Of a DNA stretch of 64,000 nucleotides, positions 4,496 through 54,837 are shown piece by piece. The position numbers and the translations under genes are program-made. The stretch is from an uncultured Bacteroidales bacterium (lineage in GTDB: Bacteria; Bacteroidota; Bacteroidia; Bacteroidales; P3): assembly GCA_900317285.1 (NCBI GenBank), contig ONGA01000004.1, positions 20,584 to 84,583 of the forward strand. Direction: 5' to 3'. Each line of letters opens with the position of its first letter. Positions within the stretch are counted from its first letter, which is position 1. The notes under the pieces were generated by a model. That model searched no databases. It was not told the origin of the DNA and worked only from the letters and a program-made list of their open reading frames with translations.

Positions 4496-4697
4496 CAACT
4501 TTTTCCAGGAGTTAACGCAGCCGACAGAAGTTAAAAGTAGTTAAAGGGCAAATGAATCAGAAAAATCTTTGTACCTTTGCAAGTGCAAAACGAGGAGAAG
4601 ATCCCATACGAAAATCGAAATAGAGACTGATTATCAGATAGATAATTATTAGCACCACTGATTTTCAAAACAATACATCGCTTTAATTCACAGAAAA

Positions 4698-4820
4698 CTA
4701 TGTTCGGTAGGTCTATACTAGGTCTATGGTACCTCTATTGTAACTCTATGGTAGGTCTATGGATGATAGTATGTCGCTCCTATGTCGCTACCTAGTTTGA
4801 CCTATGCAATAGTTTAGTCT
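4698..4820. repeat. intergenic array of TCTATGG/TCCTATG-like words
   Basis: The 334-base space from 4480 to 4813 holds no gene. Its last 120 bases are a loose array of seven or more short words of the form TCTATGG, TCTATAC, CTCTATG and CTCCTATG, which ends beside the stop codon of the OmpA-family gene. The words resemble the CTCCTAT units of the better copies at 17549, 31287 and 54719, so I treat this as a diverged relative. Spacing is irregular, so it is not a CRISPR array. The first half of the gap shows only AT-rich sequence and the promoter at 4488. Confidence 0.5.
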
Positions 4821-15798: not shown

Positions 15799-16694
15799 AT
15801 AATTCCGATTATCTCGTTTATATCGTTGATTCCATGACGTTTGCAGTAGTCCTCAAGACCATCGATAACCTTCATGGTGACGGCGGGGTCGATGAAGTTG
15901 GCGGTGCCTATCTGGACGGCCTTTGCGCCGACCATGAGGAACTCGAGGGCGTCGGCCGCAGAGGCAATACCGCCGAGACCGATGACGGGAATCTTCACGG
16001 CGTGAGCCACTTGCCACACCATTCGAACTGCCACGGGCTTGACGGCGGGACCGGAGAGACCGCCGGTGATGGTGCTGAGGTAGGGGCGCTGGCGTTCCAC
16101 ATCCACGGCCATGCCGAGCATGGTGTTGATGAGCGAAACGCTGTCGGCACCGGCATCTTCGACAGCCTTTGCGATGTCGACCACGCTGGTGACATTGGGT
16201 GTAAGCTTCACAATCAGCGTCTTATGATAGACTTTGCGGACGGCGGAGACGACCTGTGCCGCCATGTCGGGGTTGGTGCCGAAGCCCATGCCACCCTTTT
16301 TGACGTTGGGGCAGCTGATGTTGAGCTCGATGGCGGGAATCTTCTCCAACTCGTCGATTTGCGACGCCACATCGCAGTATTCCTCGATCGAGGAGCCGCT
16401 GACGTTGACGATGATATTGGTGTCTAAGTGCTTGATTCTATGATACACTTCGGTGCAAAACTTCTCGACGCCACCGTTCTGGAGACCCACGGCGTTGAGC
16501 ATGCCGGAGGGGGTTTCCGCCATGCGGGGGTAGGGGTTGCCTTCGCGGTGGGTGCCCGTGGTACCCTTGACGATGAAGCCGCCGAGGCGGTTGAGGTCGA
16601 CGAAATCGGCGAACTCCTCGCCGTAGCCGAAGGTGCCGCTGGCGGTGAGCACCGGGTTTTTCAGTTTGAGATTGTGTATGTTGACGTTCAGCAT
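15795..16694 (-). CDS. pyrD: dihydroorotate dehydrogenase, class 1B catalytic subunit
   Basis: Oxidises dihydroorotate to orotate in pyrimidine synthesis, using FMN and the PyrK partner to pass electrons to NAD. The 299-residue protein has the N-terminal [16 protein letters not shown], the active-site loop [15 protein letters not shown] with the catalytic Cys used by class 1B enzymes, and [19 protein letters not shown] for phosphate binding. I start at 16694 (MLNVN); an ATG nine bases upstream (MVPM) is also possible. Either start overlaps the end of pyrK, so the two subunits are translated together. Confidence 0.95.
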
Positions 16695-17464
16695 TGGTAC
16701 CATTTTTTGAGGGTGGAAATATCGAATACGGGGCCGTCCTTGCAGACGCAGCGGTGACCCTGGTCGGTGTCGGTGACGCAGCAGAGGCAGGCGCCGACGC
16801 CGCACGCCATCATGTTTTCGAGGCTGACCTCGCAGCGGATGCCGCGCTGGTCGGCGGAGCATGCGACGGCTTTCATCATGGGTGTGGGACCGCAGGTGTA
16901 GATGATGTCGTAGGGTTCGGCGAAAGCCGGGTGTTCAACGACCAGGCCCTTGTGGCCCAGGGAGCCGTCGTCGGTGGCGATGAGGACGCGGCCATAGGGG
17001 TTGAACTCGTCGCGCACGGGGATGAGGTCCGCCGTGCGGCCGCCAAGGAGGACGGTGCAGTCTATTCCTCTTTCTTTCAGTACTTTGGAGAGATGCAGGA
17101 GCGGAGCGATACCGGCGCCGCCGCCAACCATCAGTACGCGGCTTGAGGCGGGGATGTCGGTGGAGAAGCCGTGGCCGAGGGGATAGACGAGGTTGAGGCT
17201 GTCGCCCTCGCGGAGTTCGGCGAGACGGCGGGTGCCGTTGCCGACGACCTGTATGAGGAGGGTGAGGGTGCCGGCCTGGGGGTCGACGTCGTGGACGGAG
17301 ATGGGACGGCGGAGCATGACGCCGGGGCATCCGTCGACCTGCACCTCGACGAACTGGCCGGGGGCTATGGGCTGGAGGGTGCCACCGTGTGCGAGGAGCA
17401 GGGAGAAGTAGCGACTGCCGAGCTGCTGGCGGCGTAAGATGGTGAAACTATGTATTTCTTTCAT
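16688..17464 (-). CDS. pyrK: dihydroorotate dehydrogenase electron-transfer subunit
   Basis: The FAD and 2Fe-2S subunit that lets class 1B dihydroorotate dehydrogenase reduce NAD. The 258 residues comprise an FAD domain ([11 protein letters not shown]), an NAD-binding domain ([16 protein letters not shown]) and a C-terminal iron-sulfur loop with four cysteines in CGVGACLCC and [11 protein letters not shown] start at MKEIHSF (17464) because the ATG at 17491 lies inside the -7 box at 17489-17496. It heads the minus-strand run that continues through pyrD and the sugar kinase. Confidence 0.94.
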
Positions 17465-17488
17465 ATATACGGGATTCAAATACGGCTG

Positions 17489-17496
17489 CAAAATTA
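17489..17496 (-). promoter_or_regulatory. -7 box (TAATTTTG) for pyrK-pyrD
   Basis: Minus-strand TAATTTTG fits the Bacteroidota -7 consensus. A start point near 17482 gives a leader of about 18 bases to the ATG at 17464 and excludes the longer reading of PyrK. No -33 box stands out. Confidence 0.5.
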
Positions 17497-17548: not shown

Positions 17549-17673
17549 GGGACGAAGGATAGGAGAAAGTGGGACGAAATCCGGAAAAAGTGGCTCCTAT
17601 GGTTGTACTACCATTCTCCTATACTTCTCCTTGGGTTCTCCTATGATGCGTATATGAGCTCCTATGTCAGGGG
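17549..17673. repeat. CTCCTAT-type dispersed intergenic repeat, copy A
   Basis: About 125 bases between the divergent pyrK and cysS genes. It begins GGGACGAAGGATAGGAGAA, repeats GGGACGAAAT, then has CTCCTATGGTTGTACTACC, TTCTCCTATACTTCTCC, TTGGGTTCTCCTATGATGCG and a closing CTCCTATGTC. The long middle section is nearly identical to copy B (31287) and copy C (54719). ATAGGAGAA at 17559 and TTCTCCTAT at 17614 form an inverted pair. Several stop codons and its position between promoters argue against coding. Function unknown. Confidence 0.85.
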
Positions 17674-17751: not shown

Positions 17752-19242
17752 ATGGAACAACAGTTGTTGATTTACAATACTTTAAGCCGTCAGAAGGAGC
17801 TTTTCCGCCCGTTGACGGAGGGAAGAGTGGGCATGTATGTCTGCGGACCAACCGTTTACGGCGACGGCCACTTGGGCCATGCGCGCCCCGCCATCACGTT
17901 CGACGTGGTGTTCCGCTACCTCCGGCATCTGGGCTACAAGGTGCGCTATGTGCGCAATATCACCGACGTGGGACATCTGGAGCACGATGCCGACGAGGGT
18001 GAGGACAAGATTGCCAAGAAGGCACGCCTGGAGCAGCTGGAGCCGATGGAGGTGGCGCAATACTACACCAACCGCTACCATGCCGCCATGGAGAAGCTTA
18101 ATGTGCTGCCGCCCAGCATCGAGCCCCATGCCAGCGGCCATATCATGGAGCAGATTGCGCTGGTGCAGAGCATTCTCGATGCCGGCTATGCCTATGTGAG
18201 CAACGGCAGCGTGTACTTCGATGTGCGCAAGTATCAGGAAAATACGCACAAGTACGGTCAGCTGAGCGGCCGCGTCATCGACGAGATGCTGGCAACCACG
18301 CGCGAGCTTGACGGTCAAGACGAGAAGCATTTCAGCGGCGACTTTGCCCTGTGGAAAAAGGCTGCGCCGGAGCATATCATGCGTTGGCCCTCGCCGTGGA
18401 GCGACGGTTTCCCCGGATGGCATGCCGAGTGCACCGCCATGGGTTCCAAATATTTAGGTTCACCGTTCGACATTCATGGCGGCGGCATGGACCTTGTTTT
18501 CCCGCACCACGAGAGCGAGATAGCGCAGTGCGTTGCCTCGACGGGCCACGCCCCCTGCCGCTACTGGATGCACAACAACATGATTACCATCAACGGCCAG
18601 AAGATGGGCAAGAGCCTGGGCAATTTCATCACCCTCGACGAGTTCTTCAGCGGCAGCCACAAGGACAAGGACGGCAAGGAGATGCTGGAGCAGCCCTACT
18701 CGCCCATGACCATCCGCTTCTTCATCCTGCAGGCCCACTACCGCAGCACCGTGGACTTCAGCAACGAGGCGCTGCAGGCCGCCGAGAAGGGCTTCGCCAA
18801 GTTGATGGAAGCCTACAAGACGCTGGATAGACTTACCGGGAGCGCAAACGGCTCGTCCGAGATGCAAGCGGGACGCCTGCGCACCCAGTGCTATGATGCC
18901 ATGAACGACGATTTCGCCACGCCGACGGTCATCAGCCACCTCTTCGAGGCCGCCAAGATCATCAACGGTGCCGCCGACGGCAAGGTTAAACTCACGCAGG
19001 CCGATATCGACGAGCTAAAGGGCGTGTTCGACACCTTCCTTTTCGACATCCTCGGCATGAAAGACGAGACGTCGAGCGACAATACCGCGCTGATTGACGG
19101 TCTGATGCATATCATCCTCGACATCCGCGCCGCCGCCAAGGCTAACAAGGACTGGACCACCAGCGACAAGATCCGCGACGCCCTCAAGGAGGCCGGAGTC
19201 ACCGTGAAAGACGGCAAAGACGGCGCAACCTACAGTTACTAA
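17752..19242 (+). CDS. cysS: cysteinyl-tRNA synthetase
   Basis: Charges tRNA-Cys. The 496-residue protein has the class I HIGH motif as HLGH (residues 40-43), the zinc-site Cys in [19 protein letters not shown] and HHESEIAQ zinc ligands, and the KMSKS loop as KMGKS. The C-terminal anticodon-binding helices follow. Residues 371-379 (MQAGRLRTQ) are encoded by a near-exact copy of a REP-like repeat (18864-18888) just before the conserved [12 protein letters not shown] segment, so the repeat has been absorbed in frame at a tolerant linker. It has its own promoter at 17700. Confidence 0.96.
18864..18888 (+). repeat. REP-like palindrome embedded in frame in cysS
   Basis: This 25-base stretch matches the first copy of the intergenic repeat at 35218-35242 at 23 of 25 positions. 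It keeps the GGGACGCCTGC core and the CACCCAG tail. One base in the left arm (GCAAGCG instead of GCAGGCG) breaks the perfect stem. It encodes residues 371-379 of CysS. Confidence 0.75.
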
Positions 19243-31179: not shown

Positions 31180-31286
31180 CTATTTTTTTTTGATTGTGCG
31201 CGGGGAGGGGTGTTTTTAAGTTATTTTAACGCTGGGAAGGGCGTTTTCGGGGGCTTGGAGGCAAGTGACTGGGAATGAGGCGGGAT

Positions 31287-31423
31287 GGGACGAAAGATAG
31301 GAGAATGTGGGACGAAATGCCGAAAAAACGCCTCCTATGCTTGTACTACCATTCTCCTATACTTCTCCTTGGGTTCTCCTATACCGCTTCTTAGTTGCTT
31401 CTTAGATGCTCCTATGTAGGGGG
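31287..31423. repeat. CTCCTAT-type dispersed intergenic repeat, copy B
   Basis: The 408-base gap 31068-31475 has no gene. It holds a promoter for the minus-strand gene and this 137-base repeat. The order of words is the same as in copy A: GGGACGAAAGATAGGAGAATG, GGGACGAAAT, CTCCTATGCTTGTACTACC, then ATTCTCCTATACTTCTCC and TTGGGTTCTCCTAT, which are identical to copy A over more than 40 bases. The ending differs (CGCTTCTTAGTTGCTTCTTAG) before CTCCTATGTAGGGGG. ATAGGAGAATG (31297-31307) and CATTCTCCTAT (31350-31360) are an exact 11-base inverted pair. Confidence 0.88.
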
Positions 31424-43503: not shown

Positions 43504-43940
43504 AATATATTTAGATTTGAGGGTGCAAAAGTACACATTTTTTTTCAATTGGAGATATTTTTTTGAATGGTGCATTGCAAGGCATTGGTTATCAACACGT
43601 AATGAGATTGTCCCAAAATGGTTTCATTTTTTGCATCGATGTCAGAAAAATGGCATTCTTTATGTTTTTCAATGTGCTGTATTTTAATGGATTATACCTA
43701 TCAACTCTTACTGAACTCTTACTCTTCTCCTATGTCGCTTCTATGTCATGCCTACGGATGAGGAGGGGGACAGAGAGGTCCTTGGGGGAGAATGAGGGGA
43801 AGGTTCGGAGGATGCTGGAAGGGGGGCAAATTGGAGTAAAAGTCGGTTGCGAAATGCTCTTGGAGAGCTTGTAACAGGTTATGGGTGTTAATAAATTAGT
43901 GCTGATAAACAATGTGTTATAATTTTTTTTCAAAAAATAT
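43504..43940. other. gene-poor AT-rich space with a diverged CTCCTAT-like array
   Basis: This space before the tRNA cluster has no convincing gene. It holds the -7 box TACTTTTG (minus, 43526-43533) for the small membrane-protein gene, and an array at about 43690-43755 with ACCTATC, TTCTCCTATGTCGC and TTCTATGTC words that resemble the repeat family, followed by a G-rich run. Two short open frames (43563-43874 and 43730-43984) look accidental: odd composition and no family features. Confidence 0.55.
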
Positions 43941-44117: not shown

Positions 44118-44190
44118 GGGGTAGTAGCTCATCTGGTAGAGCATTTGGTTCGCAATCAAAAGGTAGTGGGTTCGAGTCCCATCTACTCCA
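44118..44190 (+). tRNA. tRNA-Ala (CGC)
   Basis: A complete 73-base cloverleaf with acceptor GGGGTAG/CTACTCC (G3:U70 present), D stem GCTC/GAGC, anticodon stem TTTGG/TCAAA and loop TTCGCAA with anticodon CGC, which reads GCG. The T arm GTGGG-TTCGAGT-CCCAT is intact. It has no promoter of its own beyond the upstream one, and it is followed by its own hairpin terminator. Confidence 0.88.
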
Positions 44191-44200
44191 CAGGAAAGAA

Positions 44201-44230: not shown

Positions 44231-44327
44231 TTGGTAGTAGCTCATCTGGTAGAGCATTTGCTTCGCAATCAAAAGGTAGTGGGTTGTCGGCCGAGCCGAC
44301 GGCGCACCACGAGTCCCATCTACTCCA
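44231..44327 (+). pseudogene. degenerate tRNA-Ala (CGC) copy with T-loop insertion
   Basis: This copy matches the preceding tRNA-Ala (CGC) almost throughout, including D arm, anticodon loop TTCGCAA and the 3' CTACTCCA. It differs in three ways. The first two bases are TT instead of GG, which breaks the top of the acceptor stem. G31 is C, which gives a C-T mismatch in the anticodon stem. A 24-base insertion (44286-44309) sits inside the T loop between TT and CGAGT. The insertion folds as GTCGGC-CGA-GCCGAC and ends GCGCACCA, like the tails of the REP-like repeats. It has its own terminator, but function as a tRNA is doubtful. Confidence 0.8.
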
Positions 44328-54626: not shown

Positions 54627-54718
54627 CTGCGGTTTTTGTTTTTTCTATTTCCGATAACGGGAAACAGGTGACATTATTTTGCGGTGGGGAAGGTTTTTTC
54701 AGGGGCGTTTTTGGCGAA

Positions 54719-54837
54719 CATAGGAGGATTTTGGGTGAAATGGTGTCCTATGGTTGTACTACCTTTCTCCTATACTTCTCCTTGAGTTCTCCTATGATGC
54801 GTATATGATGCGTATATGATGCTCCTATGTCGGGGGT
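54719..54837. repeat. CTCCTAT-type dispersed intergenic repeat, copy C
   Basis: About 119 bases between the divergent cytidine deaminase and Y-polymerase genes. It keeps the family order: ACATAGGAGGATTTT, GTCCTATGGTTGTACTACC, TTTCTCCTATACTTCTCC, TTGAGTTCTCCTATGATGCG, and then GTATATGATGC repeated before CTCCTATGTCGGGGG. The start region differs from copies A and B, while the middle is nearly identical. Its last ATG (54827) opens a reading frame into the polymerase gene, which is why that start is suspect. The AT-rich part before it shows nothing else. Confidence 0.87.

Follow-up and report, generated by a model that had tools for sequence, protein, structure and literature searches.

Three intergenic blocks in the DNA of an uncultured Bacteroidales bacterium, at 17549-17673, 31287-31423 and 54719-54837 of the window (the whole stretch of 64,000 nucleotides that was analysed), are mutually alignable, and they raise the question of what kind of element such blocks represent. 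A preliminary description of the window had given them a common order of words and had offered three guesses as to their nature: a regulatory element, a MITE-like element or a small RNA source. All three blocks are present with the word order described, and a repeat search of the window relates them to one another, since they form the top entry of its 42 direct-repeat families (three copies, 124 nt, 71-74% identity to the reference copy). The word TTCTCCTAT, with at most one mismatch allowed, occurs 21 times in the window as compared to 7.8 +/- 3.1 times in shuffled sequence, and none of 100 shuffles contained as many; TTGTACTACC alone has four matches in the window, which is not beyond chance (4 of 100 shuffles had as many).

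Architecture of the repeat

Read in the pyrimidine-rich orientation, a copy consists of a variable purine-rich left arm (with ATAGGAG and with TGGGACGAAA or TTTTGGGTGAAA words) and a more constant right part, which is composed of the spacer-free 11-mers CTCCTATGGTT, GTACTACCATT, CTCCTATACTT, CTCCTTGGGTT, CTCCTATGATG, CGTATATGATG (or CTTCTTAGTTG) and CTCCTATGTC. Tiling and an alignment of 37 copies show that these units are unlike one another and that their order is constant between copies. The view in the preliminary description that no tandem spacer structure fits must be given up, since degenerate 11-mers follow one another in strict register through the conserved part and make it a tandem array; the mean lag-11 identity across copies is 0.58 in the right part versus 0.26 in the flanks. 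A CRISPR array was considered and rejected, because the repeats of a CRISPR array are identical, measure 20-40 nt and alternate with unique spacers, whereas the units here are 11 nt long, lack spacers and keep the same order in all copies.

The arms and arrays of the window copies all read on the plus strand, and their lag-11 identities were evaluated against 20,000 mononucleotide shuffles. The purine-rich left arm of copy A (17549..17593), which extends from GGGACGAAGGATAGGAG to GTGG on the side toward the minus-strand gene, is common to most long-form copies; the array that follows (17594..17668) leads from CTCCTATGG to CTCCTATGTC, falls about 12 nt short of the most frequent form, and has a lag-11 identity of 0.516, a value as high as which was seen in 1 of the 20,000 shuffles. 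Copy B (L022) has a purine-rich left arm at 31286..31331 and an array of CTTCTTAGTTG-type units at 31332..31418 (lag-11 identity 0.579), while copy C (L039) has a short-form left arm with AACATAGGAGGATTTTGGGTGAAATGGT at 54717..54744 and an array that includes two CGTATATGATG units at 54745..54831 (0.675); neither value was equalled in any shuffle.

The length of the repeat changes by whole units. The distance from TGTACTAC to the last CTATGT, measured in 53 copies, is 70 nt in 36 of them, 81 nt in nine, 92 nt in four, and 103 nt and 59 nt in one each, which places 51 of the 53 at the mode or at whole 11-nt steps away from it; the two exceptions measure 58 nt (the copy A type) and 119 nt. Internal duplications are found in copies L014 and L024. 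Perfect 10-nt inverted ends were seen by eye in L036 and L040 only, and the long-form copies are without them. No target duplication was visible by eye in the short-form copies L034, L036, L038, L039 and L040, the ends of which are not firmly known.

Copies and their polarity in the source genome

A sequence-only model built from 37 copies places the family at 59 sites in the 2.07-Mb genome at E < 1e-9 (the search gave 97 rows at E <= 1, and the 60 rows below 1e-9 became 59 places when one split match was merged). With a 119-nt query, 42 rows were obtained out of 60 first-look candidates, and 40 were scored. Many copies are more than 90% identical over about 100 nt and have unrelated flanks. 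The dispersed family proposed in the preliminary description is thus real, but it is far larger than the three copies from which it was proposed, and it has a positional pattern in the form of a strong polarity bias; the outcome that was to have counted against it, these copies alone with no pattern, was not obtained.

This bias was measured using gene calls made by a home-made codon-usage script trained on the window, for 40 copies at first and then for the 55 of the 59 loci that the anchor placed (L009, L020, L135 and L145 were left out); no called gene overlaps a copy across the 40 examined. In 47 of the 51 cases with a called neighbour, the gene next to the purine-rich end points away from the copy (binomial p 2e-10), and the tandem gaps are split 22 to 3 by polarity (p 2e-4). 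The copies had been described as lying in divergent gaps just before a plus-strand gene. The gaps of all three window copies are indeed divergent, with genes for cysS, an S41 peptidase and an ImpB/MucB/SamB polymerase on the right, but divergence is not the rule in the genome, where the 55 placed copies include 22 in divergent gaps, 22 in '--' gaps and 1 in a convergent gap. The plus-strand gene is moreover the wrong side on which to look, since the right-hand gene is plus or minus about equally often and it is the left-hand gene whose strand is nearly constant (minus in 47 of 51). Copy A lies between a minus-strand gene for a dihydroorotate dehydrogenase of the electron-transfer type (16688..17491; PF10418, PF00175 and PF00970; these are the coordinates of the listed open reading frame, and the gene-calling script put the start later) and plus-strand cysS (17752..19242; PF01406 and PF23493).

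Two loci were judged individually. L025 is doubtful, since what reads by eye as an opposite-strand tRNA-Ser lies between the copy and the called left-hand gene; in L018 the nearest gene on the left looks like a tRNA that is directed away from the copy, in agreement with the polarity. The word TAnnTTTG, which we take to be the Bacteroidetes promoter word, occurs between the copy and the left-hand gene in 32 of the 47 cases. Helical phasing of the copies relative to this motif, scored in these 32 of 47, gave p values of 0.015-0.08 at all four periods and is non-specific. By eye, 35 left-hand proteins are the products of mixed core genes without a common pathway.

Several features of the surrounding DNA were also observed. 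The copies L007, L018, L020, L025, L029 and L033 lie at or near contig ends, so the copy number is perhaps underestimated. Heptamer runs such as GGTTTAAGGTTTACGG directly follow many copies (the right flanks of L002, L004, L006, L007, L008, L010, L011, L014, L020 and L033), and a period-7 array is present in 13 of the 40 loci L001-L040. The right flanks of L007, L008, L010 and L020 carry octamer-like runs of GACATCGAGACTTCGA, which form another repeat layer, and an identical AGTTTTGATAGTTCTTTTA stretch lies near these runs in three of the four.

Arrays of period 11 in related genomes

The preliminary description had proposed a search for further copies in the rest of the genome and in close relatives. 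The genome supplied them, but a copy compared with 60 relatives (36 of the same genus and 24 of the same order) matched none at E <= 1e-3. The words of the family are species-specific; its period-11 design is genus-wide. A model search at E <= 0.1 gave matches in 33 of 119 genomes, the source genome included, and when 17 of 19 chosen loci were viewed, most proved to be arrays built from different 11-mers, and paired arms were frequent among them; at least L078, L079, L081 and L085 look like chance. In the genome G090, one hairpin family is common to 21 loci, which lie in 15 divergent, two '++', one '--' and one '+-' gaps, with one side unknown for two. Eight of 40 G090 flanking proteins match the 103 flanking proteins of the source genome (a raw count, from which no shared regulon is claimed), and one gap is shared on both sides between the two genomes (L163/L015).

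Of 120 same-genus genomes, 48 contain the pattern GTTCT-N6-GTTCT-N6-GTTCT, with 405 matches in G028 and 359 in G099. Its reversed control is present in a few genomes, where it is infrequent (15 matches in G088 and 6 in G019, for example); the source genome contains neither. In an order-level sample the triplet was found in 1 of 393 genomes, G376, which belongs to another family, and the six G376 loci that were read are hairpins of the same design, so the design is not strictly confined to the genus. The G376 loci L273-L281 carry hairpins of 11-nt units such as GTTCTATACCC and GTTCTGTATGG. A 109-nt hairpin from G028 has matches in 17 of 119 genomes (a count that takes in G028 itself), the lowest at about 69% identity, and in some species long 11-nt-periodic hairpins are present in high copy. 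Among 41 high-copy GTTCT hairpin loci (from G028, G126, G102 and G077), 12 are in convergent, eight in divergent, eight in '--' and eight in '++' gaps, with one side unknown for five, and in G126 alone 8 of 14 are convergent. The promoter habit is that of the source species, of G090 and of the genus mean, and not of every family.

A single outside match was obtained (L073, CADBBP010000126.1), at the contig end of a metagenome-assembled genome named uncultured Prevotellaceae. Over 206 nt it is 100% identical to locus L012, after which the sequence is unrelated and matches no other locus of the source genome that was compared; this public contig was probably misjoined at the copy, and is not taken as an independent relative. 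Viral spread was rejected as an explanation: the GTTCT-triplet and own-word patterns do match viral contigs, but the reversed control, like them, gives at least 120 matches. At least 90 rows of the viral search (several per contig) have a period-11 context among 173 loci, and these appear to be repeats of another kind, from phages that are unrelated. The unrelated viral contigs L345, L371, L387, L388, L415 and L444 contain AGAAC/GTTCT units at a spacing of 11 nt, in some of them next to possible replication genes; the control is equally frequent among the matches listed, and no link is claimed. No report of 11-nt arrays of this kind was found among the open-licence papers searched.

Two period-11 arrays built from other words were found in the window itself by a period scan, both on the plus strand: one of the GGTCTATGGTA type at 4693..4796, in a tandem gap according to the home-made gene caller, and one with ACTCTTACTCT and TCTCCTATGTC at 43692..43760, 5' of two tRNA-Ala genes. 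A tRNA-Ala (cgc) lies at 44118-44191, and just after it 44233-44327 repeats its first 53 bases at 98% identity; this second stretch has an Rfam score just above the cut-off and no ARAGORN call, and it is perhaps a broken tRNA copy.

The distribution of such arrays was mapped in larger samples by defining an array as a 44-nt window with an identity >= 0.6. Same-genus DNA contains 13 arrays in 280,869 nt and 28 in 400,000 nt (41 in 681 kb), as compared to one array in 258,813 nt from 20 genomes of other families and one in 251,553 nt from three genomes of a sister genus; these two single arrays resemble AT-rich chance. For the other-family and sister-genus DNA, gene-free counts were used, because few genes were called there and gap figures are unreliable. 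In both same-genus samples together, which are not fully blind, since several contigs were known from earlier searches, arrays of period 11 occupy 14 of the 39 divergent gaps, 17 of the 198 tandem gaps and 1 of the 27 convergent gaps, and none lies in the 448,521 nt of called coding DNA. The stretch L661 (G021:C36) holds an ftcD gap known beforehand, and without its array the divergent figure is 13 of 39. Every other period from 5 to 20 is found in only 0-1 divergent gaps. Periods 7 and 8 are also raised in same-genus DNA (42 and 22 raw arrays versus 41 for period 11), mostly in tandem gaps, which shows that tandem arrays in general are common in the genus. Long clear hairpins are present in 7 of 32 sampled arrays.

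The same period recurs upstream of particular genes. Arrays of period 11 lie upstream of ftcD at 14 of 30 loci and upstream of aspA at 10 of 28 loci (the source genome is included in both counts, and two aspA loci were unread), while any other period from 5 to 20 is found at 0-4 loci in these gaps. The words of these arrays differ by species, and among the loci read the two gaps have words in common in each of G022, G012 and G021, while in G007 and G024 they do not.

Origin and possible roles

We consider it somewhat probable that the blocks are copies of a non-coding, MITE-like dispersed repeat with an internal 11-nt minisatellite, which would make the MITE-like element the best of the three preliminary guesses. 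This reading is preferred because near-identical ordered blocks with species-specific words occur at many sites, because similarity is graded across species while length changes by whole units, and because BrickBuilt offers a described parallel in the Bacteroidales (PMC4596501). The location habits, which differ between species (the source species and G090 versus the mostly convergent G126), fit elements with their own target habits. Counted against it are the lack of visible target duplication in the five short-form copies and of any demonstrated filled/empty site pair. No transposase or recombinase could be linked to the family. RAYT/IS200-type mobilisation was rejected as a general cause, since the single PF01797 gene adjoins another repeat, which by eye is without CTCCTAT words; a PF01797 match is also absent in 3 of 13 array-bearing genomes (G028, G095 and G090). 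That gene, for a RAYT-like Y1 transposase (a 147-aa open reading frame from ATG; L042 1401-2040, contig C13), has a GCCCCGTAGGGGC-type repeat on both sides, which is a separate REP-like family.

The copies of such a MITE-like repeat might spread as DNA by means of some enzyme, or through recombination and gene conversion, and the number of units could then shift by slippage or unequal pairing. A MITE alone does not predict a single 11-nt unit in many unrelated words, nor the excess in divergent gaps, and these features together with the polarity suggest a second layer of helix-phase constraint, imposed by a handling protein or by DNA shape. A unit of one helical turn would be kept if the handler, whether a protein or the bending that underwound DNA undergoes, depends on contacts repeated along one face. 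In the source species the copies would be retained for the most part directly upstream of promoters, and they may act there by bending DNA, by taking up supercoiling or by influencing transcription.

A possible but distinctly less probable account gives this second layer the leading part: the repeats would be promoter-upstream topology or protein-docking elements. Units phased with the helix turn would make underwound DNA bend or writhe, or would serve as a docking site for an oligomerising protein, and the period and the place would be conserved even as the words drift and become uniform within a genome. The polarity of the copies, the concentration of arrays in divergent gaps with none in called coding DNA, and the arrays of differing words upstream of ftcD and aspA all speak for it. 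Predicted curvature adds a weak signal, since it exceeds that of shuffled sequence (mean rank 0.17) and is somewhat higher than that of arrays with permuted words (mean rank 0.35 where 0.5 is expected, n = 22). The 11-bp period is also commonly taken as the pitch of negatively supercoiled DNA (PMC4132750). The high-copy GTTCT hairpins, however, are not promoter-upstream as a rule, the phasing to the left-hand promoter motif is unconvincing, long hairpins are found in a minority of the sampled arrays, and array-free divergent gaps are common in the aspA/ftcD set. The stronger formulation, that these are genus-wide DNA elements conserved by form and not by sequence, with one-helical-turn (11-nt) units on the negatively supercoiled side of the promoter whose phase and palindromy do the work (through bending, plectoneme pinning or cruciform extrusion) while their words turn over per species and are homogenised within each genome, is advanced only tentatively and with considerable doubt.

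It is improbable that slippage is the whole explanation, with period 11 a functionless favoured size in a genus prone to short gap arrays. The raised periods 7 and 8 and the whole-unit length steps are what slippage would give, but it does not put near-identical ordered blocks of 100 nt at 59 sites or make paired arms, and period 11 stands nearly alone in divergent gaps. Operator arrays of one transcription regulon would have the upstream position and fixed polarity that are seen, and a spacing of 11 nt suits cooperative binding on one face of the DNA; this explanation is very improbable, since near-identity spans whole blocks beyond any core motif, the words change completely between species, and the 35 left-hand proteins show, by eye, no shared pathway. 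A structured RNA or transcript-end element appears more improbable still. The left and right arms are partly complementary, and the common polarity of 22 of the 25 tandem gaps means that read-through RNA would always carry the same strand, but 22 of the 55 copies are flanked by divergent genes and would be transcribed from neither of them. The RNA fold is also not clearly better than that of shuffled sequence (for the six strands tried, 4 to 52 of 200 shuffles folded at least equally well, z -0.5 to -2.4), and an Rfam scan of the window gave three tRNA matches only, none at the copies. The small RNA source suggested in the preliminary description is accordingly not favoured, and RNA roles in the source species are unlikely.

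The nearest described relative is the BrickBuilt MITE of Porphyromonas gingivalis (PMC4596501), which is likewise species-limited, intergenic and multi-copy, with variable flanking modules and a spacer-free tandem core that changes by whole units. BrickBuilt differs in having a 23-nt unit, a long leader and tail, 19 loci, and one copy with 12-bp inverted ends and a 4-nt target duplication, whereas the present family has 11-nt units at about 59 places, no visible target duplication and a fixed left-gene polarity. The TAACTGA heptamers of Beggiatoaceae (PMC4679880) resemble the present family in forming many intergenic direct-repeat sets beside genes of mixed function with a sporadic distribution, but they are perfect 7-nt units near start codons, without ordered unlike units or hairpin arms. 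REP/REPIN sequences, which are associated with RAYT transposases, are also short, intergenic, palindromic, species-specific and high in copy, but they are not 11-nt tandem arrays, and the RAYT-like gene of the source genome adjoins another repeat. The 11-bp iterons of the ParR/parC type are direct repeats one helical turn apart, confined to one plasmid locus beside an operon, while the present family shares that spacing but occupies many chromosomal places beside unrelated genes; a centromere of this type was rejected, since the period fits but the 35 left-hand proteins are, by eye, ordinary and include no segregation operon.

Repeats of this kind can break or misjoin short-read assemblies, as the several copies at contig ends and the apparently misjoined public contig illustrate. 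The findings point to a little-known kind of fast-changing DNA element. If the reading given here is correct, the genus carries many short repeats per genome that share a period and, on average, a positional habit, but not a sequence, and similarity searches miss them, as the 119-nt copy did in all 60 relatives. The repeats would then offer a natural way of testing if selection on DNA can act on helical phase by itself, a question already posed about the 11-bp signal that bacterial genomes show in general (PMC4132750).
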